From a virus: a stretch of 20,189 nt of DNA. Positions within the stretch are counted from its first letter, which is position 1, and every line of letters begins with the position of its first letter. The position numbers and the translations under genes are program-made. Location of the stretch: positions 1 to 20,189 of the IMG/VR virus record IMGVR_UViG_3300030116_001581; one strand, given 5' to 3'. Shown one piece after another: positions 2,838 through 17,392 of the stretch. A model generated the notes under the pieces. The model had not been told where the DNA came from and ran no database searches. It saw nothing but the letters and a program-made list of their open reading frames with translations.

Positions 2838-2838
2838 T

Positions 2839-3450
2839 TTATACTTCGTAAGTTTGAGTTCCGTATTGAGCATTTAATTCTTCTTGGTCAGAGGCGGGTT
2901 GCCCACTACTTCCACTAGGAATTATAGGCACAACGTCGTTATTATTATATTGCGTAAAATAAGAAACGGGAAAATCTCCTATTTGAATATAGTCCTCTTT
3001 TGCTTTTAGATTAACTACTATATTAGTACCCTCTATTTTTGTTAAAACTTCTTGCTCACCCGCATTACCAAAAACGTAAGTATTTAAAGAATGATAATAT
3101 AAATCTATGTCTATTGTGTCGTCGCTAGGCATAACTACTAAACTTAATTTTCTATTTACAGTATTATCATATATATTTCTTATACTTTTTTTCGCAAATA
3201 AAAAAGTAATTGCAAATTTCCAAAATCTATCATTGCTAACATATGCTGGATTATCTATATCATTACTACCGTTAATTGGAAAAGTTGTAACACATCTTGT
3301 TATATTTGTTTTTCTTGACCTACACAAAGCTATAATATATTTTGTATTTGGTATATCTACTAAACTATTTAAGTTTTCATAAAAAGTTATACTACCACCT
3401 AATACAGTAGGAGCCATAGTACCCGTAAATTCTAAATTATACACTCCCAT
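2839..3450 (-). CDS. Hypothetical virion-associated protein, 203 aa
   Basis: I do not recognise this family. The protein starts MGVYNLEFTG and is rich in beta-forming and polar residues, with a serine/glycine/proline-rich segment near residues 178-188 and an acidic QEELNAQYG stretch before the C-terminus. There is no signal peptide or membrane segment. It sits between a hidden 49-aa gene, whose 3' end overlaps its start by 14 nt, and the portal, so translational coupling is likely. Its position directly before the portal suggests a role in the head or the neck, but this is only context. The beta-rich composition would also fit a decoration protein. Confidence 0.7.
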   Translation of the reverse strand: MGVYNLEFTGTMAPTVLGGSITFYENLNSLVDIPNTKYIIALCRSRKTNITRCVTTFPINGSNDIDNPAYVSNDRFWKFAITFLFAKKSIRNIYDNTVNRKLSLVVMPSDDTIDIDLYYHSLNTYVFGNAGEQEVLTKIEGTNIVVNLKAKEDYIQIGDFPVSYFTQYNNNDVVPIIPSGSSGQPASDQEELNAQYGTQTYEV

Positions 3451-3586
3451 TAGTTGAAAATATTTTAGTATGATACTCTTTATGTAATTTTTCTTTTTCT
3501 TCTTCGCTTTTTGCTTTAGATAGCTTTTCTTTTAATTCGTTGTGCATATCCCAATTTATATGTACCCAATCTATTTTAGTTCCCAT
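3437..3586 (-). CDS. Small protein, 49 aa, hidden between annotated-size genes
   Basis: An ATG at 3586 opens a 49-codon frame ending in TAA at 3437-3439. It fills the roughly 125-nt space between the 70-aa gene (stop at 3576, 11-nt overlap) and the 203-aa gene (start at 3450, 14-nt overlap). The product begins MGTKIDWVHINWDMHNELK, continues with a charged helix (KAKSEEEKEKLHKEYH) and ends KIFSTNGSV. Two tryptophans in the first 12 residues, the amphipathic helix and the paired overlaps on both sides argue for a real gene rather than chance. Its function is unknown. By position it belongs to the head or portal unit. Confidence 0.7.
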   Translation of the reverse strand: MGTKIDWVHINWDMHNELKEKLSKAKSEEEKEKLHKEYHTKIFSTNGSV

Positions 3587-3788
3587 TGTTACCGCCTATA
3601 AAATCTAAATCGTCTTCTATTTCTACTTTTTTTGTTTTGATTTTTTTCTTTTTAGATTTGTTTGTAAAATATTTTTCTTTAAAATCTTGGCTTAAATTAT
3701 TGACTTGATGAGGTTTTAATTCTCCAAATGTCAAATTCATATTTAAGGGTTTGTAGTCTTTGTATTCGTCTTTAACTTTCCAAGCCAT
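3576..3788 (-). CDS. Small basic protein, 70 aa, first gene of the portal unit
   Basis: The chosen ATG at 3788 gives MAWKVKDEYKDYKPLNM at the N-terminus and 70 residues. An upstream in-frame ATG at 3830 (84 aa) would add 14 hydrophobic residues reading MNNIMTFIFI, which look like translated AT-rich leader. The TATATTTATA leader motif at 3810-3801 would then lie inside the gene, so the shorter form is preferred. The C-terminal third is lysine-rich (NKSKKKKIKTKKVE) followed by an acidic patch and GGNNGN. Short MAWKVK-type proteins between the structural genes are familiar to me from flavobacterial phages, but their role is not known to me. It is the first gene after the intergenic region and so probably the start of a separate transcript. 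Confidence 0.68.
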   Translation of the reverse strand: MAWKVKDEYKDYKPLNMNLTFGELKPHQVNNLSQDFKEKYFTNKSKKKKIKTKKVEIEDDLDFIGGNNGN

Positions 3789-4050
3789 AATATAGTTTAT
3801 TATAAATATAAAAGTCATTATATTGTTCACAACTTGTCTTTTTTGTTAAATAAATTTTACAAATAAGCATTTTATGTAAAAAAAACTTTATGTTAAAAAG
3901 CTAATTTTGTAACAGAGGTAAATGTTATAACTTTTTTTTTTAATAGTAACATACTACAAAGGGTATAAAATGTCTTAAATCGCTTGTTTTTAGATACTGT
4001 AAAATTTTTTATATTTCCAAATTTTTTTAAAAATATTAAAAAAGGTTTAT
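3789..4050. other. Noncoding stretch between the tail-tube-like gene and the portal unit
   Basis: This is the only stretch of about 260 nt without a convincing gene. It is very AT-rich, with a run of ten A residues on the minus strand (3941-3932), an 8-bp palindrome GTTATAAC at 3924-3931 and the TATATTTATA leader motif near its downstream end. It follows a strong terminator, so a promoter for the portal unit is expected here. I could not find a convincing Bacteroidota-type pair of -33 TTTG and -7 TAnnTTTG elements. I see no tRNA or stable hairpin inside it. Confidence 0.5.
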
Positions 4051-4080
4051 AAAAAAAGGGGCGTAATTGCCCCTTTCTTT
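4051..4080 (-). terminator. Intrinsic terminator after the tail-tube-like gene
   Basis: On the minus strand, AAAGGGGC and GCCCCTTT form an 8-bp stem (4076-4069 with 4062-4055) around the 6-nt loop AATTAC, followed directly by a T tract. It begins about 20 nt after the stop codon of the 205-aa gene. GC pairs concentrated in an otherwise AT-only region make this a clear rho-independent terminator. The symmetric A and T flanks mean it could also act in the other direction, but no plus-strand gene needs it. Confidence 0.88.
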
Positions 4081-4099
4081 TTGAGTAACGATTTATTAA

Positions 4100-4717
4100 T
4101 TATCCCGTAGTGATAGTTAAATTTGCTTCGTCTGTTAAACCGTCGAATGGGTATTTAGGCGTTGGTGTTCCACCAGAGCCAACTCCCGCCGTAGCATTTA
4201 TCCAAATCATAGGGTCTTTTTCTTCACCTCTTAATTCTAAAGTAAAACCGGTCATATCACCTTTTCCAGCACCAGTTACCGCAGTACCACCGCTTACGTC
4301 CATACCATTATCTATACCTAACAAAAATAAATTATCGTTGTTGTCTAAAACGAATACTTGACTTCTATTGTAAGAAATCAACTTTAGCTCGTTAGTTTGT
4401 GCAACGCTTAATTTTTGCATAGTAATAGATAAAGTTTGCTCAAAAAAAGTAGTGCCCGTAGCTGGGTCGCTAGTAAAGTTTACGGTCATAGAAGACAAGT
4501 TAGGTCGAAGATCATATTGAAATACTGTTACCGCACCGCCACTTTGTATATCCCAATTAGAAAATCCCGCAGTATCTATAACATTTGTATCGGTTCCGTC
4601 AAAAGTAGCATTAGCTCTAATGTCCGAACAATATGACTTAACAAAGTATATACGCTTTAAACCGCCTATTTGGTCTTTACAATCTACTAATAAACCTTTT
4701 GTTAAATTACAAGCCAT
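4100..4717 (-). CDS. Probable tail tube (major tail) protein
   Basis: This 205-aa protein follows the major capsid gene and is boxed between two intrinsic terminators, which suits a highly expressed structural protein. It starts MACNLTKGLLVDCKDQIGGL and is rich in beta-forming residues. The stretch FVLDNNDNLFLLGIDNGMDV leads into a glycine/threonine-rich segment and then FTLELRGEEKDPMIW. That succession, a hairpin-like LLGIDNGM-SGGTAVTGAGKGD followed by an L-GEE strand, resembles tail-tube proteins of Bacteroidota siphophages as I remember them. No membrane segment is present. A head decoration protein is the main alternative. The gene starts about 30 nt after the upstream terminator. Confidence 0.55.
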   Translation of the reverse strand: MACNLTKGLLVDCKDQIGGLKRIYFVKSYCSDIRANATFDGTDTNVIDTAGFSNWDIQSGGAVTVFQYDLRPNLSSMTVNFTSDPATGTTFFEQTLSITMQKLSVAQTNELKLISYNRSQVFVLDNNDNLFLLGIDNGMDVSGGTAVTGAGKGDMTGFTLELRGEEKDPMIWINATAGVGSGGTPTPKYPFDGLTDEANLTITTG

Positions 4718-4749
4718 TTTATATATTTTATATTGTTAATATTCCTTTT

Positions 4750-4777
4750 AAAAAAAGGGGTGATATTTCACACCCCT
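4750..4777 (-). terminator. Intrinsic terminator between the capsid and tail-tube-like genes
   Basis: On the minus strand AGGGGTG pairs with CACCCCT (4777-4771 with 4762-4756) around an 8-nt loop, and the stem runs straight into seven T residues (4756-4750). It lies 14 nt after the capsid stop codon and 33 nt before the next start codon. No separate promoter for the 205-aa gene can be seen in the space left, so partial read-through is likely and would lower the downstream gene relative to the capsid. Confidence 0.88.
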
Positions 4778-4790
4778 AATTATCTATCTA

Positions 4791-5792
4791 CTATGTCCAA
4801 ATTCTAGCTCCGAATACTCCGTCAGTAGCTACCGCAGTTTGTACGCCTACCGCAAAATTCATAACAATTCTTACGTTGTCTGAACCGTCATATTGGTAAG
4901 TTGGTATAATTCTAGCTTCGGTGTAATCAGTAGCTAAATTTGTACCAAATACTAGATTTTCTCTATATGTTGCAACAATACAATCGTCAAACATACCTGG
5001 GCATACATAAATTGGGTGTCCAAAGTATGTAACTCCCTCGAACGACTGTGAAGCACCTAGATTATTGATACCTTGATTTGATCCCGCTTTAGCTAACGCT
5101 TGTATGTATAGAGCATAAGTTTTGTTATTCATATAAAAACCAAAACCTGGTTTAGATGTTAAACCACCAATACCAACAGAAGCGTTATACATAGCTCCCA
5201 TATTAGTTAAAATATCGTCAACGTCTAAAGCGTCAGCAAAAGTAACTTCTGTAAAATCTTTACAAGCACTAGCGTCAGCTCCCGCTTCGTCTAAAGTACC
5301 ACTATTAGACGTAAAGCCAACAGAATTGTTAGTATCGTCAACTTTTCCCATCCAAATTCCTTTTTCTAATTGCTCTCCAGCCTTACCCGCAACAGTTGAA
5401 AGCAAAAAGTCTTCAAACGTTCCCGGTAGGTTTCCGTTTCTATCCATATTTTCACCAATCCAAGTTGGAAAAACTTTAGCTCTACAAATTTCTTCATTAA
5501 CTTTATAGTCAGTTAATGTTAAAACTTGTTCTGTTAAACTTGTATCGTTACTAGAAACAAACGTACAGTTTGAATCACCACCCGCAACAATAGGATTTGT
5601 AATACCAATATTAGATATAACCGCTTTCGCATTTAATCCGTCAATTGTTCTTACGTAATTCTTCGCAATAGTATCGGGTGACTTTACGGCAGCCGTTACA
5701 TAAGGCAAAGCTAATTTACCCGCATAAGTGTTATCAACAACATTTATGTCAAATTGGTAATCTCTTGATAAATTGTATTTGTTATTCGCCAT
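4791..5792 (-). CDS. Major capsid protein (HK97-like fold, inferred)
   Basis: A 333-aa protein that I take to be the capsid shell subunit. Evidence: it follows a protease gene and an acidic scaffold gene in the canonical protease-scaffold-capsid order, it has the right length, and it is followed at once by a strong terminator. The N-terminus reads MANNKYNLSRDYQFDINVV. Mid-protein motifs include TWIGENMDRNGNLPGTFEDF and the helix LLSTVAGKAGEQLEKGIWMGK, where a long helix before a GIW-G turn is typical of capsid proteins in Bacteroidota phages. The C-terminus has VRIVMNFAVGVQTAV, a strand as expected for the P or A domain. There is no signal peptide. The start lies 16 nt after the scaffold stop with an A/T-only leader and no Shine-Dalgarno motif. 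Confidence 0.85.
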   Translation of the reverse strand: MANNKYNLSRDYQFDINVVDNTYAGKLALPYVTAAVKSPDTIAKNYVRTIDGLNAKAVISNIGITNPIVAGGDSNCTFVSSNDTSLTEQVLTLTDYKVNEEICRAKVFPTWIGENMDRNGNLPGTFEDFLLSTVAGKAGEQLEKGIWMGKVDDTNNSVGFTSNSGTLDEAGADASACKDFTEVTFADALDVDDILTNMGAMYNASVGIGGLTSKPGFGFYMNNKTYALYIQALAKAGSNQGINNLGASQSFEGVTYFGHPIYVCPGMFDDCIVATYRENLVFGTNLATDYTEARIIPTYQYDGSDNVRIVMNFAVGVQTAVATDGVFGARIWT

Positions 5793-5808
5793 TTTAAAAA
5801 AATTTTAA

Positions 5809-6513
5809 TTATTTATTATTAATGTAATAGACCGCTCGTTGTTTTGCCGTCATTTTTGCTAAATCAACTTTTTGCGATTTAGTATTACTTTCGGGTGAAT
5901 GAGTAAAACCCTCACTACCCGGTTCTTTTTCTAATTCTATTATTTGAGATTTTAATTCCTCAACTTCTTCTACTAAAGAAGAAATCATATCTTTAGACAT
6001 CTCAACCATTTCCTCTTCTTGTACTTCTTCTTTAACTTTCTCTACTTCTTCCGCCATTTCTTTTTTATCACCATAAGCCATTTCTTTAACTTTTTTAGCC
6101 ATTTCTTTAGCTTTTTCTTTACTTACGTGATCTGGTGTATGGTCAAAAATTGCTTTAGATAATTCTTCTTCGTCTATTTCTTCCATTTCTTCATCTTTCT
6201 TTTCTTCTTCCATTTCTTCTTTTTCTTCTTCATTCTCAACTTCTTCCGCTTCTTTTTCTTCGCCCATATCTAATATTTTAGAATCTTCGTCTATTGTTAT
6301 TTTTGCACCGTCTTGCATTGTGTATGACCCGGCGTCTAGCGGTGATGTTTCTCCGTCGTCACCAATAACCATAACTTTAGAACCAATCATAAACTGGTCA
6401 TCTTCTGTTGCTAATACTCTACCGTCGTCTAGTATCATTTCAGCGTACATTTTTACTTCTTTACTTTCGTCTTTAGATAACAAAAGTTTTTTTATTTTTT
6501 CTATTGTAGTCAT
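5809..6513 (-). CDS. Acidic capsid scaffold protein
   Basis: A 234-aa protein just before the major capsid gene. Residues about 20-83 form a compact beta-rich domain (MYAEMILDDGRVLATEDDQ, then DAGSYTMQDGAKITID). Residues about 84-120 are almost entirely glutamate, lysine, aspartate and methionine. Residues about 150-196 form a coiled coil (VEKVKEEV then VEEVEELKSQIIELEKE). The last 20 residues are basic and helical (KMTAKQRAVYYINNK), the usual form of a scaffold's capsid-binding end. The scaffold would nucleate the procapsid and then be cleaved or expelled by the adjacent protease. Its function is inferred from composition and position. The start has a TATATTTATA-type leader 14 nt upstream and no Shine-Dalgarno motif. 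Confidence 0.75.
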   Translation of the reverse strand: MTTIEKIKKLLLSKDESKEVKMYAEMILDDGRVLATEDDQFMIGSKVMVIGDDGETSPLDAGSYTMQDGAKITIDEDSKILDMGEEKEAEEVENEEEKEEMEEEKKDEEMEEIDEEELSKAIFDHTPDHVSKEKAKEMAKKVKEMAYGDKKEMAEEVEKVKEEVQEEEMVEMSKDMISSLVEEVEELKSQIIELEKEPGSEGFTHSPESNTKSQKVDLAKMTAKQRAVYYINNK

Positions 6514-6561
6514 TGTTACTTTTTTTTTATAAATATTAAACTTAAATAATTGTTCATAGGA

Positions 6562-7575
6562 CTAGCTTTTTTCTACCCTATTTTTTATGGAATTACAAAC
6601 CTTATTAGCAATTTTTTTATTGTTGTATTGCCTAACCATATCTCTAATACAATCATTCCAATTATACCTAACTAATGCTTGTTTATGTATATAATTAGAA
6701 TAACTTACATATTTGTTTTTTTTCTTATACTTTTTACGTTTTTTTCCTAACTCGTCTTCTATGTATTCTTTCTTTGTACTTTCTTCGTGTGTATAACAAG
6801 CCATATATCTAACTACGCCGTTTACGTTATGAGTATGAAAACCTTTACAACCTTTAAACATATCAGCGTATATTTCCGCTTCTTCTTTGGTAGCAAATAA
6901 CGGCTCTCCGTCTAAACTACCGACAACGGCTAATTCGTTTTCTAGTATAATGTCTTTTATTTTTGCTAGTGTTACTTCGTCGGGGCAATCCGTACATTCT
7001 TCGGCTAAATCAATTATATCTTTAGGTATTGACGCTTCTATTATTTTATCAGTAAAAAAACCCTCTATACTAAACCCTCTTACTTTACCCTCTTTTACAC
7101 TATTCCAAATCTCATCATTATTTACTTTCATTTTTACAAACCAAGTGCCGATAGGTAATTTTTTAAATCCATAAGAGCTAGACTTATCATTTTTTTCGTC
7201 TTCCTTAATCCAGCTCTCAACTACGCTAATTCCTTTTACGGGTACTTTATGCTCATAAGTAGCGTTATTGTTTCTTAAACTTGACATAAAAAGCTCTTGT
7301 GCTTGTCGTATAGTTTCTTCGGTAAAGTAGACTATATACTTTTCGTCTTTTTCTTGGTCGTATCTTGGTATTTCTTTGTTAGGTATTAATACCGCACCAA
7401 CTAAAGTTTTTTGTTCTTCGTCTAATTTTGCTAATGTTAAGAATTGATCTTTATTAAAAAATACCCAATTTTCTTCTATTGCGGGAAATTCAACTAAACT
7501 AATAGCTTCTACACCAAATCTTTCGCTATCCTCGTCTATAATTAGTTCTACTTTTTTTAGTTTTTCTTTACTCAT
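6562..7575 (-). CDS. XkdF-like phage serine protease (capsid maturation)
   Basis: A 337-aa protein. Residues 1-180 match the XkdF-like prohead protease family (Peptidase_S78_2) by motif: LVEFPAIEENWVFF (28-40), the histidine segment ATYEHKVPVKG with H109, VVESWIKED (118-126), YGFKKLPIGTWFVKMKV (135-151) and VRGFSIEGFF with S169. H109 and S169 are the likely catalytic pair. Residues about 225-262 form a small cysteine/histidine module (GCKGFHTH then YMACYTHE) seen after this protease domain in Bacteroidota phages, possibly metal binding. A very basic tail (270-337) carries CIRDMVRQYNNKKIANKVC. It would cleave the scaffold and perhaps the capsid during head maturation, which agrees with its place just before those genes. 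The stop lies 48 nt before the scaffold start. Confidence 0.8.
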   Translation of the reverse strand: MSKEKLKKVELIIDEDSERFGVEAISLVEFPAIEENWVFFNKDQFLTLAKLDEEQKTLVGAVLIPNKEIPRYDQEKDEKYIVYFTEETIRQAQELFMSSLRNNNATYEHKVPVKGISVVESWIKEDEKNDKSSSYGFKKLPIGTWFVKMKVNNDEIWNSVKEGKVRGFSIEGFFTDKIIEASIPKDIIDLAEECTDCPDEVTLAKIKDIILENELAVVGSLDGEPLFATKEEAEIYADMFKGCKGFHTHNVNGVVRYMACYTHEESTKKEYIEDELGKKRKKYKKKNKYVSYSNYIHKQALVRYNWNDCIRDMVRQYNNKKIANKVCNSIKNRVEKS

Positions 7576-7604
7576 ACTTATAAATATAAATTGTTTAAAA
7601 TTGT

Positions 7605-9299
7605 TTATAACGTTGCTTGTAAATCTAAATCATTTTGTAACGCTTGACTACTACTAACATCACTCTCAACTACAAACGCTTGTACAGGTGGCGGTTCAGT
7701 TTCTATTGCTCCAAAAGTAGGTGCTATTGGAGTAACGTCCTCTACTACTTCGGGTGTAGGTGGTGGGGGTGCTCCTCCGTCCGTTTCACCCGGTATGTCA
7801 GTTTGTAGTATTGTTCTAACATTTGCTAAACCATTCGCTATAATTCCTACCGCTCCTAATGTACCAAATAGACCACCTTGTGCAAGAGCCTTGGTGGCAC
7901 CCGCATAAGTGTCCATAGTTGCTTGTGCTACCGCTAATCCTTTACCCGCTTTTGTTTCAGCACCCACTAGAGCCGTTATACCACTTAAAGCACTACCAAT
8001 AATTTGTCTTTTATTATCTTGCAACGCTTGTTCTTTTTGCAATTCTGCTTGGTCTAATTTTCCTTTTTTAGTTAAATAATCTTTATTTATTTGTTCTTTT
8101 TTTTGTGCTAATTCTTGTTCGTTAGTAATAGTTAGCTCCGCCATACGTAACAATCTATCTCTTTCATTTATAAACTCTTGTTCTTGTCTTGCTACTTCGT
8201 CAACGCCTATTTTAGCTAACTCTTGCCTATTAGCTAATTGTTCAGATAATAGAGCATTGTTTTGCTCTCCGCTTTCTTTTTGTAATTGTGTCTTTCTAAA
8301 TTCTGTTTCGGCAATAGCGTTGTCTAATTCTAATATTTGTGCTTTAATTTCAGCATTATCAACGTTTACGTCCATTTGTTTTCTTAAAGCTCCTTGTTGT
8401 TGCCTTAATGCTTCTATTTCTGCGTCAGCTTGTTTTTGTGAAATATCTAATAATTTAGTATTTGCTTCAATTCTATCCTCAATAGTTCTACTAACGTCAT
8501 CTCTTATTTGTCTTTGTTTTTCCGCTTGTGTTTCAAATTCTATCCTAACCTCTCCTAATTTAGCTTGTAATATACCAAGGTTGTTTGTTGCTTTTGTTAC
8601 GGCTTCCGCTTGGTCTTTTATAGTATTAACTGTTACGCCTTTAAAAGTGTTGTTAAATTCTTGTACAGTAACCTCGCCTAATTTAACTATTTCTCCTACA
8701 CCCTCTTTAAAATCTACTATTATTGATTTTCCAGCTTTTAAAGTTTCTTCTGTTGCTTTTTTTATTTCATCTTTATATCCCGTAATTTGATTTTGTAATT
8801 TGTTTATTCTATCTATATCACCTTTTCCCAACCACGATTTTTCCCAAGCTAACTGCACCTCTTTAATAACTAAAGCTACACCATTAAATACAAGTTTTAA
8901 AGGTTGTAGAGCTAGTTTTATTAAATTATTTATTATTCTACCTAAAGCGTCAAAATTTTCACTAGACGCCCCCGTTCTATTTACAACATCAGTTATAACT
9001 TGTGATATTTTACCTACTACAACTCCGACCATATTAAAAGCCGTAGTAACAGTATCGGCTATTTGTTGATTTTTTTGTAACGCTTCCCAAAGTTTATTAG
9101 CCATTTTTAAAACAACACCTAAACCTAGACCCCTAAATACTAAACCTAAACCTTTAAACCCGTTAGACAAACTTTTAACCGCCGACGTTTGTTTTTTAGT
9201 TTCGTTACCAACGTCTTTAACTCCTTTTTCTAATGCTCCTAATTTTGTTAAAGCGTCTTTTACGTCCGCCTCTACTTCTATTGTTACTTTTTCCGACAT
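7605..9299 (-). CDS. Tail tape measure protein
   Basis: A 564-aa protein with hydrophobic helices near residues 45-70 and 85-110, long coiled-coil helices across about 155-425 (for example EALRQQQGALRKQMD and NEQELAQKKEQINKDYL), a hydrophobic C-terminal domain (KGLAVAQATMDTYAGATKAL, then GTLGAVGIIANGLANVRTIL) and a disordered proline/glutamate-rich end. This is the layout of a tape measure, which sets tail length and enters the host envelope. At about 0.15 nm per residue it would suggest a tail of roughly 85 nm; that figure is a rule-of-thumb estimate. It is short for the class. It begins 16 nt inside the end of the 59-aa gene and is the last tail gene before the head genes. Confidence 0.8.
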   Translation of the reverse strand: MSEKVTIEVEADVKDALTKLGALEKGVKDVGNETKKQTSAVKSLSNGFKGLGLVFRGLGLGVVLKMANKLWEALQKNQQIADTVTTAFNMVGVVVGKISQVITDVVNRTGASSENFDALGRIINNLIKLALQPLKLVFNGVALVIKEVQLAWEKSWLGKGDIDRINKLQNQITGYKDEIKKATEETLKAGKSIIVDFKEGVGEIVKLGEVTVQEFNNTFKGVTVNTIKDQAEAVTKATNNLGILQAKLGEVRIEFETQAEKQRQIRDDVSRTIEDRIEANTKLLDISQKQADAEIEALRQQQGALRKQMDVNVDNAEIKAQILELDNAIAETEFRKTQLQKESGEQNNALLSEQLANRQELAKIGVDEVARQEQEFINERDRLLRMAELTITNEQELAQKKEQINKDYLTKKGKLDQAELQKEQALQDNKRQIIGSALSGITALVGAETKAGKGLAVAQATMDTYAGATKALAQGGLFGTLGAVGIIANGLANVRTILQTDIPGETDGGAPPPPTPEVVEDVTPIAPTFGAIETEPPPVQAFVVESDVSSSQALQNDLDLQATL

Positions 9300-9463
9300 A
9301 ATAATTCTTTAATTTTTTTAAATGTTTGTTTTATTGTGCTTGGGTATTCTTGCGAACCCGTTGCAAAATCATATTTACTACCAGTTGCTCCAAGATCAGT
9401 AAGTAAATTTATTGTTATAGGCATTAGTTTGCCTACCTCTTTTATGTATTTTTCTAATTCCAT
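9284..9463 (-). CDS. Small protein, 59 aa, before the tape measure gene
   Basis: An ATG at 9463 opens a 59-codon frame ending in TAA at 9284-9286. It overlaps the end of the 1148-aa gene by 10 nt and the start of the tape measure gene by 16 nt, filling a 155-nt space. The product starts MELEKYIKEVGKLMPI, has a middle LTDLGATGSKYDFATG and ends in a basic helix KQTFKKIKELLCRKK. Its position just before the tape measure is where tail assembly chaperones often lie, but its sequence gives no family match. Amphipathic helices at both ends and short overlaps on both sides support a real gene. Function unknown. Confidence 0.6.
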   Translation of the reverse strand: MELEKYIKEVGKLMPITINLLTDLGATGSKYDFATGSQEYPSTIKQTFKKIKELLCRKK

Positions 9464-12400
9464 AGTAAAAAGTTATTTTCTTCAAACAATATTCTATTTC
9501 CATTTTGGAACATAGCTCCCGTTGGTAATTGTGTGTCATCGTTACCTACGGGTTGAGTTAGTAATTCTATTTTTGCGGTCCACATAACTTGTTCATTAGC
9601 ACCACCAACTATTAACGGCTTCCAAAATCCTTTACCATCATATCCCGTTATATTTATACTTGGTGTAGTAAAAGCTGAATCTTTATTTATATGGTCTAAA
9701 CTACCACCCGCCGTTCCTACAAAGCTAGGCGTACCACTTCTATTAACTAAAAGAGTTAAATAAGTAAACGTACCTATTTTTCCTTTATTTGTGCCGTCTA
9801 AAACTGTACCTAATAAAGTTATCTTAACGTCTACCATAGTAAAATTAGGTAGTTTTAAAAATTTTGTAGTATAGCTATTATTTGTAAATTGATATTGTGT
9901 AGAGTTGTCAAAAGTTGTTGCTTGGGCATATATAGTAATAGCTCTAGTTTCTTGTGCATTTCTTCTCATAGCACTAATAGGAAAGTTGTTTTCTATATTA
10001 GGCATTAGAGCTGGAATAAATGTATTATTTGGCGTATTGTTATAAGGTAACATAGGTACTTGTGAAAATCCAACATCGGTATATGTTGGTATAGTGCCGT
10101 CACCACCACTATTATCTTGATTTACTAAAAACTCGTAACAATCACCTACGCCCGTAGTAGAGTTAGTTTCAACAAAAATCCAATTAGGGTTTTGTTGTGT
10201 GCAACATTCGTTAGTTATAGTAGTTGCTAAACCCGTAGCACTATCTACCCAAGTCATTAAACCCGTTTGTGTTGTTGTGTGTATAGCGTCACAACCCGTT
10301 TCTAACCTTTCTATAACTTTCATTAGTTTTACTTTAGTAGACTTGTTACCACCTACTAAATAATTATCTATACTTATAACTCTCCATAAACAATTCTTTA
10401 TAAAATATGTATCTTGAAATCCCGAACCCTCAAAAGTTCTTATGTCTTCGGGGTCTAAATTTATATAACACTCCATTATTCTAGCGTCCTTGTCGTATAT
10501 CTCATTTATATATTGTGCCCAATACTCATTATAAAAACCTTTATTACTAGGTAAATTACCAAAGTAGTTAAATGTAAATCCCGTATTAAAAGACGGACTA
10601 TAATAAGTCCAATTAACTATTTTTGTGTCGGCTACTACACCCGTATTTAAGTTGTCTAAATTGTATTGTAAACACAAAGGAAATTTATTAGTAGTAGGTG
10701 TGCTAGGGTTACTATATTTATAATACCCGCTTATATCTAAACTAGATATAAATGAATTTGAATATATTGCAAATTTATAAGCATTATTAGTAATAGGATT
10801 AGTACCCGTAAATTCTATTGGTGTACCCGAATAATAAAATAATTTAGGTTTTAAACCGTTTGGTACTTTTCTAACACCGCCTAGCTCCGCTTCAAACATA
10901 TAAGCAATAGCTACGTTTTGGTCGGGCATAGCTGAATTTATACCGTTTGTATCCCAATGTGGTAATCCTTGTGCTATAAAAGGCGACATAACACTAAAGT
11001 TGCTAAATTCACCATTTGAAAAATCGTTATCCATTTTTCTACGTCGCTCACCGTATACTACATTTTGTTGTTTTGTATATCTATCATTTAAAAAGTCTTT
11101 ATCTTCTAAATCTTTAAAACTTAACATTTTACTTTGTAGCTCATTAGTAGACTTTACTACTTGCTCTTTTGATACGTCTAATTTTTCCGTCCAATATTTA
11201 GTTGTACCCGCATTTATAAAGTCTTGATATGGCTCTATTAATAATAATTTTTCGTTATCGGGGTCCGTTTTTATAATTAAATTAAATCTATTTAAAAGGT
11301 CTTTTACAAAGTCTGCTTGGCTCATATCGGGCATATTGTGAAACATAGTAACTTCACCTTTTTCAAAACCACTAAACATACTTGTTTCACCCGTGCCTAA
11401 ACTTTGTATAGATAAATTGGTTATTACGGGTGTAAATGTATCACCACTTAAATTACCCGTACTTTCAGCACCATAAAAAACAACAACTAAATAACACGCC
11501 ATTTGAGGACCACCCGCCCATAATTCACTTACTGCTTGAATATCGTGTGTTCCCGGCGTTAAAGTAAAAGTTGTTGAATCTAATAAGGTACTACTATATG
11601 AGTATTCATACCAAGCCACTTGAACATTAATAGAATCTATTGGGTCGCTACTTAAATAAGCCGTAGGCGGTATTTGTAAAGTAAATTTTGTTTCTATACT
11701 AACCCAACCAAAAGGCAATTGAGCGTCTGTTTGTGTAATATCTTGTGTAGTATTAAAAAGTATTGCGGGAGCAAAAGGTACATTTGTAGGTATATTTATA
11801 TTTAAAGGTAAAGCCGATATATCACCAAAATACATATTATTAGGGTCGTAAACTTCGGTACAAGTTAGACCTTGATAACAAATATCACCAATAGAATCAC
11901 CCGAAAAAGGAACATTAGCAATAGGTGGGACTAATGCTTGTTCACCTTTAAAACCAACAAAAGCTCCCGTAGTAGACGTTGAGGTTTCAAATAAAGTTTG
12001 CACTCTTTCGAATTGCGGTGCTAAAGTCATAAACAATCTACTAAACCATTGTGTATCGGTTACGGGTGTAGATTCGTTTGTGTCATCAATTCCTAAAAAT
12101 GTACTTTTAACTTGATAACCCGCCTTTTGTGTTATTATTCTAAATAATCTTTGTATTCTTATAGCGGGTTTAAGCATACTAGGTCTTATAATCCCGTATT
12201 GGTTCATACCATTTAAAATCTCTAAATAGTCTACAAATAAATCAGTATTAGAATATCCAATTTCATCTACAAAGTCTTCGGGCGACCAAAACATAGACGA
12301 GCTTAAAGGTTGTTGTGAATGTCCGTAGTCTATAATTGGGTACATTATATCGTTAGTAGTAGTCGGAGTGTCTTCCGTAGTAGTAATTCCCGTTGTCCAA

Positions 12401-12900
12401 CTGTTAATAATATTGTCTACTGTTAGCTTGTGGTCTAGTTGTTTATCGTCTGTTACTGCTCCCGTAGTTTCATCTACATTTTTAAAAGCGTCTTGTAGTC
12501 TTTTATCTTTAAGATCAGTAAAAAAATCCGCAGTATTACCAAATAAAGCTATTTCGTATAATCTTTTATTTAGATAAATAGCTTTTAATTGTAGAAAACC
12601 TTTAAGTTGTGGTACACTATCTATATATAGTATAGCTTGAAATTTAGTTTGAGCATTATATACTAACGTTTCTAAATTAACGTCAAAATAGTTTTCAAAA
12701 AATTCATTGTTACGATTAGAAAAAGGTAGTTTAATTGTTTGACTAAAACTAGCTTTCCTTTGATCTGGACTTTTTAAATCTAAAAAATTATAATTTACAA
12801 CTACATTTGGAGCTTGTTGTAAATCCAATTCATATTGATCTACGTCAAAAGGTGCGGAGCTATCATTTTCTCTACGGTATGCTACAAGTCTAACATTCAT
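9454..12900 (-). CDS. Large tail structural protein, 1148 aa (tip, baseplate or adhesin)
   Basis: The largest gene of the window. The first 130 residues are the most family-like part: NVVVNYNFLDLKSPDQRKAS, then FSQTIKLPFSNRNNEFFENY and QLKGFLQLKAIYLNKRLYEI, a pattern I associate with tail proteins of Bacteroidota phages. The rest is beta-rich and full of threonine, asparagine and glycine, with a segment around FVKDLLNRFNLIIKTDPDNE that recurs in tail-hub or baseplate proteins of this kind. The C-terminal part (after CDAIHTTTQTG) is low-complexity and may be an adhesin-like region. No signal peptide is present. The start overlaps the preceding stop by one base (TAATG). It lies between the 477-aa protein and the tape measure gene, so a tail tip role is plausible, but the exact function is unknown. 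Confidence 0.72.
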   Translation of the reverse strand: MNVRLVAYRRENDSSAPFDVDQYELDLQQAPNVVVNYNFLDLKSPDQRKASFSQTIKLPFSNRNNEFFENYFDVNLETLVYNAQTKFQAILYIDSVPQLKGFLQLKAIYLNKRLYEIALFGNTADFFTDLKDKRLQDAFKNVDETTGAVTDDKQLDHKLTVDNIINSWTTGITTTEDTPTTTNDIMYPIIDYGHSQQPLSSSMFWSPEDFVDEIGYSNTDLFVDYLEILNGMNQYGIIRPSMLKPAIRIQRLFRIITQKAGYQVKSTFLGIDDTNESTPVTDTQWFSRLFMTLAPQFERVQTLFETSTSTTGAFVGFKGEQALVPPIANVPFSGDSIGDICYQGLTCTEVYDPNNMYFGDISALPLNINIPTNVPFAPAILFNTTQDITQTDAQLPFGWVSIETKFTLQIPPTAYLSSDPIDSINVQVAWYEYSYSSTLLDSTTFTLTPGTHDIQAVSELWAGGPQMACYLVVVFYGAESTGNLSGDTFTPVITNLSIQSLGTGETSMFSGFEKGEVTMFHNMPDMSQADFVKDLLNRFNLIIKTDPDNEKLLLIEPYQDFINAGTTKYWTEKLDVSKEQVVKSTNELQSKMLSFKDLEDKDFLNDRYTKQQNVVYGERRRKMDNDFSNGEFSNFSVMSPFIAQGLPHWDTNGINSAMPDQNVAIAYMFEAELGGVRKVPNGLKPKLFYYSGTPIEFTGTNPITNNAYKFAIYSNSFISSLDISGYYKYSNPSTPTTNKFPLCLQYNLDNLNTGVVADTKIVNWTYYSPSFNTGFTFNYFGNLPSNKGFYNEYWAQYINEIYDKDARIMECYINLDPEDIRTFEGSGFQDTYFIKNCLWRVISIDNYLVGGNKSTKVKLMKVIERLETGCDAIHTTTQTGLMTWVDSATGLATTITNECCTQQNPNWIFVETNSTTGVGDCYEFLVNQDNSGGDGTIPTYTDVGFSQVPMLPYNNTPNNTFIPALMPNIENNFPISAMRRNAQETRAITIYAQATTFDNSTQYQFTNNSYTTKFLKLPNFTMVDVKITLLGTVLDGTNKGKIGTFTYLTLLVNRSGTPSFVGTAGGSLDHINKDSAFTTPSINITGYDGKGFWKPLIVGGANEQVMWTAKIELLTQPVGNDDTQLPTGAMFQNGNRILFEENNFLLWN

Positions 12901-14333
12901 TAGCTATTTGTTTTTACTTTATTAGCGTACTCTAAATTTATAGTATATTGTATTTTCATTTTATCGTTTACGCTTGTTTTTTTTGTGTAAGTTTTATTAG
13001 TAATTATCATTGGGTACACAATACTATTATCGTCTAGTAAATGTACGTTAGTAGACGTAAACAATTCTTCTAGCCAAGCACCCTCGTCTTCATTTAACCA
13101 ATCAGTATTAACAACTAACTTTCTTTGTGCTTCTGTAAATAAAGTTTCTCTACCCCTATCATAGTTTTCATAAGTGAACGTAGCACTATTCCAACTTCCT
13201 ACCACTCTTTCCATTTCTTCGCTTTTTATATTTATACTTTCCATAGACTTACCCCGAAAATTCATATAATCCCAACAACCTAACCTATTACGCCAAGCTA
13301 ACCTAATATTGTCGTATTTATTGCAACTTTGGTGTCTATCCTCTATGCCCGTAATTCCAGCACCATATCTATAAAAGTAGTAGGTTTTAGTTCTAACAGT
13401 ACCGCCCGTAGCTAGTCCTTTAATTGTATAGTACGCCCAATTAGTATTATTGCTAGGTCTTTGTAGATTTGTACCACCATTATTAAAATTTTGCAAGTTG
13501 TATGTACCCGCCCCAAAATATATTAAACTATTTTTTACGTCGTCAGCACTAGCTTTACCACCTACACCCGTAACGTTGCTAATATCTACACTATTTATTA
13601 GTGTTCCGTCAGCTAAATAATAGCTAACGTTTATTTTTTCTATTGGCGATCCGTCAGTAATTAACCCGTCTTGTATAAAAGCTAACGTTAATTCGTCTAC
13701 ATTATCACTAGAAGAATTACCACCTCTAACAAATTGATATGTTGGACTATTAGTTAAAAATTGTTTTACTATACTTTGAGGTATATATTTAGTCATTGGG
13801 TTATTTGTTCCGTCTATGTCTAATCCGCCCTCATTTGTACCCGTATTGGTAAAAGGTGTAGTTGCTGGAGTAGAATATATAATCTCACTAGCTCCGTCTA
13901 CACCACCACTAGGCAAAGTAACAACGGGAGCGGTAGTTTGTGACGTGGCTTTTTCGTAACCCCCCTCTACTTTTATTCCTACTACTTGACTTGTATTTTG
14001 AGAATATATATTAGACGTGTCATTTTTACCTATTGAATGTATAGAACCGTCAATTGTATCAGTAGCAACATCACCAACGTCTTTTAATTGTGTTTCTAAA
14101 CTTGTTCTTACTATTTTGTGTATGTCAATGATACCAACTCCAGCATTATTTTTAGGCACTTTTATAGTTGTTAATAAAGACCACGTACTAGCGTTAGTTG
14201 TACTTTTATATATTTTAGCTACATACTTAAATTTAGGGTCGTTAATAATTGTTGTGCTTTCTTTTAATACAAACATCATAGGGTTATTTGCTCCCGCTAA
14301 TTGATTTGGTTTTTGTTCTATTGTAAACGCCAT
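12900..14333 (-). CDS. Tail structural protein, 477 aa, function not known
   Basis: Starts MAFTIEQKPNQLAGANNPMM and continues with beta-rich sequence (KFKYVAKIYKST, then GIIDIHKIVRTSLE). The middle is rich in glycine, threonine and serine. The last 150 residues form a distinct domain with CNKYDNIRLAWRNRLGCWDY, GKSMESINIKSEEMERVVG and a closing IQYTINLEYANKVKTN strand. An opening that recalls fibronectin-like or tail-tube-like modules and an ending with an aromatic-rich RLAWRNRLG-WDY motif are familiar in Bacteroidota phage tail loci, but I cannot name the family. It is linked by one-base TAATG overlaps to both neighbours (202-aa and 1148-aa genes), so the three are translationally coupled and probably act in one assembly. 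Confidence 0.68.
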   Translation of the reverse strand: MAFTIEQKPNQLAGANNPMMFVLKESTTIINDPKFKYVAKIYKSTTNASTWSLLTTIKVPKNNAGVGIIDIHKIVRTSLETQLKDVGDVATDTIDGSIHSIGKNDTSNIYSQNTSQVVGIKVEGGYEKATSQTTAPVVTLPSGGVDGASEIIYSTPATTPFTNTGTNEGGLDIDGTNNPMTKYIPQSIVKQFLTNSPTYQFVRGGNSSSDNVDELTLAFIQDGLITDGSPIEKINVSYYLADGTLINSVDISNVTGVGGKASADDVKNSLIYFGAGTYNLQNFNNGGTNLQRPSNNTNWAYYTIKGLATGGTVRTKTYYFYRYGAGITGIEDRHQSCNKYDNIRLAWRNRLGCWDYMNFRGKSMESINIKSEEMERVVGSWNSATFTYENYDRGRETLFTEAQRKLVVNTDWLNEDEGAWLEELFTSTNVHLLDDNSIVYPMIITNKTYTKKTSVNDKMKIQYTINLEYANKVKTNS

Positions 14334-14941
14334 TATCTACTTAAATTAATTTTTAAATTTGGTTGTTCATCTATTGTTATTGAATTGTCCATATCTACCG
14401 CCATAGCTCTTGTTAAATCTACTTTTAAATCCTCTATCATATCGTCATACGGTTTGCTAATAAACCTTGTTCTTTCTATACCTTTTTGTTTTATACTTCT
14501 TGCAATTAAAAAAGCTAATGTTTTATCTTTTATAAATCTACCCGTACCTTTTACTACTGTTCCGTCTTTTTTTGTGTAACCCTTATCTCTACCTTTTAAA
14601 CCCTTTAATTTTATCCAAGGTAGTATAGCACTTAACGGCGGTTGTTTACCATTCCTTTTAAAAGAAAAATCGCTACCTTGACCCCTTTTATTACCGCTAC
14701 CTTTAAAGCCACCCGCACCTTGTACGCCCTCGTCTACAAATATCCAATAGTCTTCAGCTTGTCCAAAATTCATTACAAACTTTACGCCACTTTCAGTTTT
14801 TTCAATATCATAGCTCATCTCATCAAACAAAGTGCCTTTTGCTCTTTTACCTTTCTTGTTTAGATTAGCTCTAGCTTTTTCTATTAGCCTACTACCAAAA
14901 CTTGTTAATACTTCTTCTAATGCTTTAGTTTTTAATTCCAT
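14333..14941 (-). CDS. HK97 gp10-like tail completion protein (neck/tail component)
   Basis: A 202-aa basic protein. Residues 1-60 form helices (EEVLTSFGSRLIEKARANLN), followed by the core YWIFVDEGVQGAGGFKGSG (65-83), a lysine/glycine-rich loop, then PPLSAILPWIKLKGL (101-115) and LAFLIARSIKQKGIERTRF (142-160). An FVDEG-G motif followed by FLIARSI-KGI-RT and a KP-D amphipathic end is typical of gp10-like tail-component proteins that join tail and head. The start overlaps the stop of the 169-aa gene by one base and its own stop overlaps the next start in the same way. No membrane segment. A role at the head-tail joint is inferred from family resemblance and position. Confidence 0.68.
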   Translation of the reverse strand: MELKTKALEEVLTSFGSRLIEKARANLNKKGKRAKGTLFDEMSYDIEKTESGVKFVMNFGQAEDYWIFVDEGVQGAGGFKGSGNKRGQGSDFSFKRNGKQPPLSAILPWIKLKGLKGRDKGYTKKDGTVVKGTGRFIKDKTLAFLIARSIKQKGIERTRFISKPYDDMIEDLKVDLTRAMAVDMDNSITIDEQPNLKINLSR

Positions 14942-15450
14942 TATACGTTTCTATCTTTATCGCTTGGCTCAATAGGAGCGTCACATAGTGAATTAGAATT
15001 ATTGACTTGCATAGTAAAAGTAGCGTTCCAACCCGTTAGCATATTAGAAAATCTAACGCTAAATGGCTCGGCGTTTATAGGTAAGTTTAAAACTACCTCG
15101 TTAGGTATATAGCTAAATTTTTTACCTGGGTCGTTAGCGGTTTGAACCGACAAGTTTTGTCTAAACTCTGCTATAACATCTTGCATAATTTGAAGCATTT
15201 CAGACCAAACTTCCTCGCGGTTAGACAAGTCTTCTTTTACTAAATTCATAGTAAATACTTTAAATGTATATGTTAGTACGCCTTTGTCTATGTTTGTATT
15301 TCCCGGTTCAACATAAAGTATAGGAAAGTTGCTAGAATCCATTTTTTCTATATCTACTTCGTCTAACAATCCACTATGAAAAGAATTAATTAAAAAATGA
15401 TTTGTAGCTATTGTATTAAAGTCGTCTACTATGTTTTTATATGTTATCAT
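14941..15450 (-). CDS. Probable tail terminator/completion protein, 169 aa
   Basis: Starts MITYKNIVDDFNTIATNHFL and has a mixed alpha/beta layout: an N-terminal helix, FPILYVEPGN, the strand GVLTYTFKVFTMNLV, a long helix (REEVWSEMLQIMQDVIAEF) and C-terminal strands ending in WNATFTMQV. Proteins of this size and strand-helix-strand form next to a gp10-like gene are usually tail terminators, which cap the tail tube. I do not recognise a firm family signature, so the call rests on fold-like pattern and neighbourhood. The ATG overlaps the TGA of the frameshifted frame of the upstream gene in an ATGA junction, which implies translational coupling to the longer (frameshifted) product. Confidence 0.55.
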   Translation of the reverse strand: MITYKNIVDDFNTIATNHFLINSFHSGLLDEVDIEKMDSSNFPILYVEPGNTNIDKGVLTYTFKVFTMNLVKEDLSNREEVWSEMLQIMQDVIAEFRQNLSVQTANDPGKKFSYIPNEVVLNLPINAEPFSVRFSNMLTGWNATFTMQVNNSNSLCDAPIEPSDKDRNV

Positions 15451-15689
15451 TTATATTTATTATAATTACTTTTTTCTATATTGTTCTTGTCTTGTTGATA
15501 GCTTAAATATGTAAACACTAAAGCTATCTCCGTTTTAGTTATTTTTTCTATGTCTAATATAGACGAAGACAAAGAAAATATAATGTTATACCAACCCCAT
15601 TTACTAGCTAAAGTTTTTTGACCTTGTTGTTTTTCACTAGCTCCGTCGAATAACTGTTTAAATCTTCCAACAAATTTTTGCCTAAATGA
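15447..15689 (-). CDS. -1 frame extension of the tail-chaperone-like gene (80 codons, no start codon of its own)
   Basis: Reading one base back at the end of the ten-T run gives SFRQKFVGRFKQLF and continues 80 codons without a stop to TGA at 15447-15449. The frame contains ASKWGWYNIIFSL and ITKTEIALVFTYLSYQQDK, compact motifs with tryptophans that look like real protein and not chance translation. There is no ATG at its head, so it can only be made by frameshifting. Fused to 168 residues of the zero frame it would yield a 248-aa protein. The extension fills the 157 nt between the zero-frame stop and the next gene, and ends in an ATGA overlap with that gene. The zero-frame tail overlaps only its first 81 nt. 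Confidence 0.82.
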   Translation of the reverse strand, partial: SFRQKFVGRFKQLFDGASEKQQGQKTLASKWGWYNIIFSLSSSILDIEKITKTEIALVFTYLSYQQDKNNIEKSNYNKYK

Positions 15690-16192
15690 AAAAAAAAATC
15701 TATCGCCGATAGTGTTGTACTCATTGGTAAATCTTTAAATTTGTCTATTTCGAGCTCGTCTGGATCATAAGGTTTTACGCTATAATACTCGTTTATTTCT
15801 CTATCAACTTCTCTATACAAAACCGACATTACTCTATGTAAATTAGCGTTTATATTACTAGAATATTCTTCTAAATCTACAAACTCGCCCGTTGTCATTT
15901 TACTCAAATTAGGTATAAAGCCGTATTGCTTACCTTTAAACTCTATTCTTTTTTCTAAATCTTTTTCTTCTTTACTATTTAAAAACTTGTTTAATTTTTC
16001 TACAAGTATTTTTTTATCTTTTAATTTTATTTTTTTTATAAGTTTTTTATCTACTTTACAAAACATAGCTATTATCTCGTCCTCTTTTGTTTTTCTCTTT
16101 ACCCTAGATAATTCTAAATACTTTTGATATTCTGCAATAGTAATATCTTTCCATTCCGTAGGCACTATAACCTCAAATTTTTTTCTAGCCAT
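15608..16192 (-). CDS. Tail-assembly-chaperone-like protein, zero-frame product (194 aa)
   Basis: Starts MARKKFEVIVPTEWKDITIA and contains EYQKYLELSR (21-30), EIIAMFCKVDKKLIKKIKL (39-57), VEKLNKFLN (64-72) and FIPNLSKMTTGEFVDLEEY (92-110). These helix-rich motifs recall phage proteins annotated as tail assembly chaperones in Bacteroidota phages; the match is from memory. At codons 165-168 the gene passes through ten T residues. The zero frame then continues 26 codons to TAG, while the -1 frame continues 80. Both forms could be made, as with lambda gpG and gpGT. The start has the TATATTTATA leader 5-14 nt upstream and lies 30 nt after the large terminase stop. If it is not a chaperone, it is still a frameshifted structural or assembly protein. 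Confidence 0.72.
   Translation of the reverse strand: MARKKFEVIVPTEWKDITIAEYQKYLELSRVKRKTKEDEIIAMFCKVDKKLIKKIKLKDKKILVEKLNKFLNSKEEKDLEKRIEFKGKQYGFIPNLSKMTTGEFVDLEEYSSNINANLHRVMSVLYREVDREINEYYSVKPYDPDELEIDKFKDLPMSTTLSAIDFFFHLGKNLLEDLNSYSTELVKNNKVKKL
15689..15698 (-). promoter_or_regulatory. Probable -1 ribosomal frameshift (slippery) site, ten T run
   Basis: On the minus strand the codons are GAT TTT TTT TTT CAT, that is T10 with two overlapping T-TTT-TTT heptamers in the correct register for simultaneous -1 slippage of two tRNA-Phe. It is the point where the two coding frames meet. I see no obvious stem-loop or pseudoknot in the next 60 nt and no upstream Shine-Dalgarno stimulator. Polymerase slippage on the homopolymer is the alternative way to reach the same frame. 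Confidence 0.72.
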
Positions 16193-16222
16193 TTGTTATA
16201 AATATAAAATTGTTGTTTTTGT

Positions 16223-17392
16223 TCATAAAATATAATACTTACCACTATAATTAGTAGTTAACTTATTTAACGCTACATATCTAATAGCGTCTATTAGATG
16301 GTCTTGTTGATTAGTTGCGGGTTTGTTTATTACTTGCCCGTTCTTGTCTACTAGCCACTTATAATACTTAAATTCGTTTATAGCATTTACGCTATTTTTT
16401 GTTATATGTATCTTATAACGCCTTAATACATCAATTCCCATATTAATACTATCAGCTCCTTTTTTAGCTCCTTTTATATTAAATCCTAGTCTATGTATTT
16501 CTTCTATACTTTTTGGTTCGGCACTATCACCTATTATTTCTACTTGCCTTGTTATATTATACTCTCTTAACCTTTTAGCTATATCTTGATTAGTTAAACC
16601 TTTAGCGTATAACAATTCATTAATATATAAATCATCATTTAGCTTGTATACTTCTACAATAGCCGTTGGGTCGTTGCTATATCCAAAATCCATACCTAAA
16701 GCTATTAGCGTGGCTTGATCTGGAATTGTGTTACATAGGTTAAATTGTCTAAATATTGTTTCGGTAGGTTGAGCCATATCTCCTAAACCGTATATAGTCC
16801 AATAGTTAGAATCTAGCTTTTTTAACCTTTCAATTTCTTTAATTGTTTCTTCGGGTAAAAATGGGTTGTCTAAATATGTAGATTTTATAAAAGTACAGTC
16901 ATCTCTATTTATAACGTTGTCATAAATCCAACTATAAGGGTCGGACGGGTTAAAGTCTAAATATATTTTTTCGGTACACCTTAAAGACAATTGTATAAAG
17001 TCCTCTAAAGAAAACTCTGTTGCTTCATTAAGCCAAAGATAGTTTCTTTTACGACCCCTTACTTTTGCGGGTTGGTCTACACTAATAAACTCTATTGTAT
17101 TGTTGTTTAGCTTATATGTTAATTCGCTTTTATTGTGATTATCGGGATTATATAAATTATGACTTTCTAGTATATTAAAAAAATCTCTATAAGCACTAGA
17201 TTTTAAAGCTGGAAGCGTCTTACGACAAATAGTATATACCTTACCTTTGCTTTGTAACGCTTTTAGAATTATTAATTGAGCTAGTGAATACGTCTTACTA
17301 CTTCTTGTACCACCTTGATTTACAACAATTCTTGTACTAGCATTAAGATTCTTTTGTAGGACTACCGTCCCCTTTAGGTTCAATAATTTCAA
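16223..17392 (-). CDS. terL: Terminase large subunit (packaging ATPase and nuclease)
   Basis: A 389-aa packaging motor that translocates DNA into the procapsid and cuts it. The ATPase has Walker A GGTRSSKT (27-34), Walker B YLWLNE (118-123) with the catalytic glutamate, and the coupling segment LDFNPSDPYSW (145-155). The RNase H-like nuclease has acidic residues in MDFGYSNDPTA (D235), IGDSAEP (D289) and DHLIDAIRY (D364, D368). The order and spacing fit a complete terminase, slightly short for the class. The first ATG lies 50 nt inside the small terminase gene, and the next Met codons fall after Walker A, so this start is safe. The two subunits are thus translationally coupled. Confidence 0.95.
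   Translation of the reverse strand: MKLLNLKGTVVLQKNLNASTRIVVNQGGTRSSKTYSLAQLIILKALQSKGKVYTICRKTLPALKSSAYRDFFNILESHNLYNPDNHNKSELTYKLNNNTIEFISVDQPAKVRGRKRNYLWLNEATEFSLEDFIQLSLRCTEKIYLDFNPSDPYSWIYDNVINRDDCTFIKSTYLDNPFLPEETIKEIERLKKLDSNYWTIYGLGDMAQPTETIFRQFNLCNTIPDQATLIALGMDFGYSNDPTAIVEVYKLNDDLYINELLYAKGLTNQDIAKRLREYNITRQVEIIGDSAEPKSIEEIHRLGFNIKGAKKGADSINMGIDVLRRYKIHITKNSVNAINEFKYYKWLVDKNGQVINKPATNQQDHLIDAIRYVALNKLTTNYSGKYYIL

Follow-up and report, generated by a model that had tools for sequence, protein, structure and literature searches.

A phage gene downstream of terL in which two reading frames meet at a conserved T9-T11 run: a candidate for recoding by polymerase slippage

The window (the whole stretch of 20,189 nucleotides analysed here, IMG/VR virus record IMGVR_UViG_3300030116_001581) carries, after the terminase large subunit gene, a gene whose zero frame encodes 194 aa and in which the -1 frame stays open beyond a run of ten T. 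The initial annotation had proposed that a -1 slip on this run joins 168 residues of the zero frame to 80 residues of the -1 frame in a 248-aa fusion, and the coordinates, lengths and frames that it gave were right. The features of the locus are the following.

16223..17392, minus strand: terminase large subunit (PBSX/TIGR01547), upstream of the gene studied here.
15608..16192, minus strand: zero-frame gene (short product), 194 aa, made of 168 shared residues and a 26-residue zero-frame tail.
15689..15698, minus strand: T10, the putative slip site, zero frame GAT TTT TTT TTT CAT, with an in-frame heptamer T TTT TTT.
15682..15684, minus strand: +1-frame TAG immediately behind the T run; reading of a transcript with one T lost or two gained would stop at it.
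15447..15689, minus strand: -1 frame extension, 80 aa and TGA; WGWY, Y and D are invariant in the alignment of relatives.
15608..15688, minus strand: predicted dual-coded stretch, the 26 zero-frame codons and stop also read in the -1 frame; zero-frame dN/dS is 0.33-0.43 here versus 0.93-1.01 in the same frame farther downstream.
14941..15450, minus strand: next gene, 169 aa, with an ATGA overlap with the extension.
7605..9299, minus strand: candidate tape-measure protein, 564 aa, weakly matched by tape-measure entries of PHROG (E 4.2e-5); it lies some 6 kb downstream of the gene.

Read along the minus strand, the zero frame runs ...ATA GAT TTT TTT TTT CAT TTA GGC... and reaches its stop after 26 more codons. 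The -1 frame runs ...TTT TCA TTT AGG CAA... and is open for 80 codons, after which its TGA and the start codon of the following gene overlap as ATGA, a junction already noted in the annotation and confirmed in the sequence. An open stretch of this length is far beyond chance, as had been supposed, since 16 other genes in the window offered 4323 stretches of 80 codons in their -1 frame, every one of them with a stop. The statement that the extra frame has no start codon holds for ATG, but in-frame TTG and GTG codons are present in its distal half. T10 is the only coding-strand T run of at least 8 within a gene in the window, the other such run being an intergenic T8 at 3878-3885. Among protein families, phrog_32199 matches the zero-frame gene (E 1.7e-17), and scanning the window for Rfam families and for tRNAs gave no matches.

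Relatives were gathered by searches with the N-terminal part, with the extension and with profiles of the fusion. These searches yielded loci on IMG/VR contigs and on three contigs of metagenome-assembled genomes, and the annotated phage records contributed Nonlabens phage P12024L. In the genome collection a single-sequence scan found none, and the three contigs came from the profile scan. Scans with one profile per half placed the two parts in different frames in 274 loci, and the extension was in the -1 frame in every one of them. The loci comprise 177 distinct sequence contexts, with GC contents from 27 to 55%, in which the run is T9 (116 contexts), T10 (57) or T11 (4) and is never interrupted or shorter than nine T. 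Almost all of the relatives keep both the run and the open -1 frame, and conservation of the extension starts at the junction itself (SFR). The run occupies two of the three possible codon phases, both of which keep T TTT TTT as an in-frame heptamer; about 3-5 changes of phase are placed on the tree, always with at least nine T, and the T9 minimum is drawn from related sequences with only that number of phase changes. Differences in run length among relatives are due to substitutions and never to a frame-changing indel; the T10-C of window-like sequences, for instance, differs from the T11-A of those resembling L003 by a C to T substitution. In relatives with 55% GC, the T9 is the sole A/T run of at least seven in the locus. 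A stop in the +1 frame within about four codons after the run is common (155 of the 177 contexts), but it is confounded by dual coding and may be a by-product of both frames coding there, so we do not claim it as a selected stop.

In Nonlabens phages P12024L and P12024S the two halves correspond to gp40 and gp41 (phrog_32199 and phrog_38404), which are homologous to the gene described here, follow terL and share a T9 run and the -1 relation, but are annotated as two unrelated hypothetical proteins. In P12024L, gp41 (L121, 8351-8518) was annotated as a 55-aa gene starting from an internal ATG. It corresponds to the distal portion of the -1 extension, and phrog_38404 and phrog_32199 are therefore probably the two halves of one recoded gene.

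Continuous versions of the fusion were also found. In four contigs (L244/L275, which are one contig, L276, L277 and L278) the N-terminal part and the extension form a single 258-aa ORF from which the run is absent. L244 has this ORF in the same slot, flanked upstream by the terminase and downstream by a homologue of the gene that comes next in the window (32% identity, E 6e-29). In the tree, this continuous clade is nested beside the T9 relative L279 with support of 100/99, a position that points to a loss of recoding in that clade through in-frame fusion. More distant continuous proteins of 259-301 aa (phrog_25418) are encoded by the Duneviridae phages FPSV-F7, laban6-1 and Ingeline_1, by Polaribacter phage Leef_1 and by a Microcystis phage; they differ in lacking the slip site, and the homology is full-length, the match between the Duneviridae-type profile and the fusion profile spanning the junction over 225 columns (probability 97.4, E 9e-12). 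Because the full fusion exists in these relatives as a single ORF that has no T run, it is, as judged by homology, a real protein. In the record of Flavobacterium phage 6H, gp10 (L197, 10048-10927) is broken over several frames, whereas the 99% identical FPSV-F7 carries the gene as a single ORF of 293 aa; these breaks are probably indel errors in the 6H record.

Selection in the -1 frame, which had been put forward as a check, was measured in 23 close relatives. The ratio dN/dS was 0.14 in the N-terminal part and 0.11 in the extension beyond the overlap, indicative of strong purifying selection on the extension. Within the overlap it was 0.31 for the -1 frame and 0.36-0.43 for the zero frame, and downstream of the overlap it rose to 0.93 for the zero frame and to 1.8-2.0 for the +1 frame. 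In six of seven clades the zero-frame ratio rose from 0.33-0.70 within the overlap to 1.01-2.21 downstream of it, and the -1 synonymous rate fell in the overlap in most of the seven. The exception was clade L116, in which the tail is not constrained (1.26 in the overlap against 0.99 downstream). Confidence intervals are wide for any single clade, and the argument rests on repetition over clades. As the zero-frame tail overlapping the extension appears constrained in six of the seven, the short and the long products are probably both in use.

These data strongly support programmed recoding to the 248-aa fusion, as the initial annotation had supposed, over the two readings that dispense with recoding. 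The annotation had itself considered a miscounted homopolymer; under this reading, or that of a decayed gene, one T is missing from the run and the gene would in truth be continuous. Homopolymers are error-prone, and the 6H record has frame breaks absent from its near-identical counterpart, but a missing T would need to have recurred identically in 274 loci from many metagenomes and in the isolate P12024L, with runs of 9, 10 and 11. The constraint on the zero-frame tail and the open, conserved state of both frames likewise oppose error or decay. Given the same -1 relation and the uninterrupted T9-T11 runs in all split loci, we consider a miscount extremely improbable, and as a general explanation it is already refuted; as read from these comparisons, the split across frames is biological and not a sequencing error. 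Nearly as improbable is that the extension is a separate gene with its own internal start, as gp41 of P12024L is annotated. An ATG, GTG or TTG is indeed found in many -1 frames, but such codons are missing altogether from 17 of 176, and in 82 none precedes the conserved WGWY block; moreover, conservation runs from the junction onward and continuous relatives join both parts.

The explanation that we regard as probable is that this is a two-product recoding gene whose long form arises by slippage of the polymerase on T10. Most transcripts would be read in the zero frame to give the 194-aa protein. In a fraction of mRNAs, slippage of RNA polymerase on T10 would add one U, and ordinary translation of the resulting 11-U mRNA would continue in the -1 frame to yield the 248-aa protein with its 80-aa C-terminal extension. 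One inserted U corresponds exactly to the -1 frame, and one lost U to the +1 frame. RNA polymerase of E. coli needs at least seven T to slip, prefers poly-T to poly-A and, in the study concerned, made insertions threefold over deletions (PMC6260861), and runs of nine bases slip efficiently in vivo (PMC5009743).

Whether the slip is made by the polymerase or by the ribosome was assessed from sequence features around the run. The ribosomal -1 slip favoured in the initial annotation is possible, and transcriptional slippage, there listed as an alternative, fits at least as well. In the ribosomal case, two Phe-tRNAs would re-pair one base back on U_UUU_UUU, and a few percent of ribosomes would make the fusion, in the manner of lambda G/GT. 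This is workable because the heptamer is always present in frame, in every context and in both phases; it is also the usual route in phage tail assembly genes (PMC5009743), with a measured frequency of 6-7% in one phage tail chaperone cluster (PMC3711429). However, no RNA structure was detected downstream of the run (mean folding z of -0.1 over 48 clusters, for structures free of pseudoknots), and Shine-Dalgarno-like motifs upstream of it were seen in only 3 of the 48. Moreover, seven or eight T with the heptamer intact would do for a ribosomal slip, yet such runs were never found. A terminator-like hairpin just before the run, a candidate stimulator of polymerase slippage (CTATCGGCGATAG-A-T10 in the window, CTCAATGTCAGCATTGAG-T10 in the L096 group), showed no excess over shuffles and was rejected, its mean stem being 3.96 against 3.89 expected from synonymous-codon shuffles of the 48 clusters. 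The minimum run length was also set aside as a proof of slippage and is only suggestive, because most of the T's are also explained by the heptamer together with coding in both frames. The lack of a Shine-Dalgarno-like element, of downstream structure and of a conserved hairpin tips the balance modestly towards a transcriptional slip, with ribosomal frameshifting as a plausible but distinctly less probable route and the remainder assigned to mixtures or other routes.

Transcriptional slippage on this gene would resemble that of Shigella mxiE (T9) and spa13 (A10) and of Thermus dnaX (nine A/T), in which a homopolymer of at least nine A/T likewise lies at the frame junction, the alternative product is likewise in the frame of one inserted base, and ribosomal stimulators are not needed (PMC5009743, PMC6260861). 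In contrast to those cases, the gene here belongs to phages and is conserved over hundreds of diverse ones, its zero-frame product also looks functional, and slippage is a prediction from sequence.

The initial annotation had likened the gene to lambda gpG/gpGT. The short and long architecture stands, and is shared with both lambda gpG/gpGT and HK97 gp13/14: one gene in the phage morphogenesis region gives a short and a -1 extended product with a common N-terminal part. Membership of that family does not stand, as sequence homology is absent and the gene is not beside a tape-measure gene. The slip site is a pure T9-T11 run instead of a heptamer of the G GGA AAG type; the gene follows terL, at about 6 kb from the tape-measure candidate, whereas those of the lambda/HK97 type lie just upstream of the tape measure and after the major tail protein; and here, in contrast to them, a zero-frame tail of 16-70 codons, itself constrained, overlaps the extension. 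In Ingeline_1, two genes lie between the homologue and the tape measure. Comparisons by hhalign with lambda gpG and HK97 gp13 gave nothing, and no tail chaperone model of Pfam or NCBIfam matched. The gene therefore appears G/GT-like at the level of expression, and membership of the G/GT family is not supported.

The zero-frame product and the extension were folded apart, as two chains, and the AlphaFold2 model of the former was mostly helical and confident (pLDDT 87.6). A search of the PDB by sequence and fold gave no useful match. Fold matches were found to many uncharacterised phage proteins, including proteins of P12024S and of Flavobacterium phage 6H, together with one weak BFVD match (E 0.015) to a protein named tail assembly chaperone. 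The neighbourhood of the gene consists of packaging and virion genes. By analogy with the tail assembly chaperones of lambda, the short and long pair might act in virion morphogenesis, a proposal on which we judge the case evenly balanced.

In open papers, the only literature covered, no description of the gene as recoded was found, and one may exist elsewhere. Two hypothetical proteins, now placed in separate families, would become one recoded gene in hundreds of phages. We propose, tentatively and with slightly more doubt than assurance, that in a large, uncharacterised group of phages, probably with Bacteroidota as hosts, the proportion of the two forms of a morphogenesis protein is set by programmed slippage of the polymerase on poly-T and not by the ribosome. 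Such a system would be the equivalent of G/GT at the level of transcription, with a protein family that is unrelated or very distant, and one clade would have lost it again when the halves fused in frame. Bacteroidota ribosomes hide their anti-Shine-Dalgarno sequence, and in such hosts a slip site independent of a Shine-Dalgarno-like element would make sense. The relatives also constitute a natural series, with T9, T10 and T11 runs in two codon phases, GC contents from 27 to 55%, and both nested and outgroup continuous versions, which serves the question of when phages fix a protein ratio by polymerase slippage and when by ribosomal frameshifting.

Other observations concern the virion genes of the window. 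Their order is unusual (669-17392), starting with terL and the recoded gene, followed by tail-type genes and the tape-measure candidate, after them protease and capsid, and the portal near the end. The portal gene (669-2873, 734 aa) contains a coding-strand A10 run at 1326-1335 that would likewise be a candidate for polymerase slippage. Its product has long extra C-terminal domains, one of which resembles, by eye, the product of a stand-alone 116-aa gene of L244 (4982-5332).
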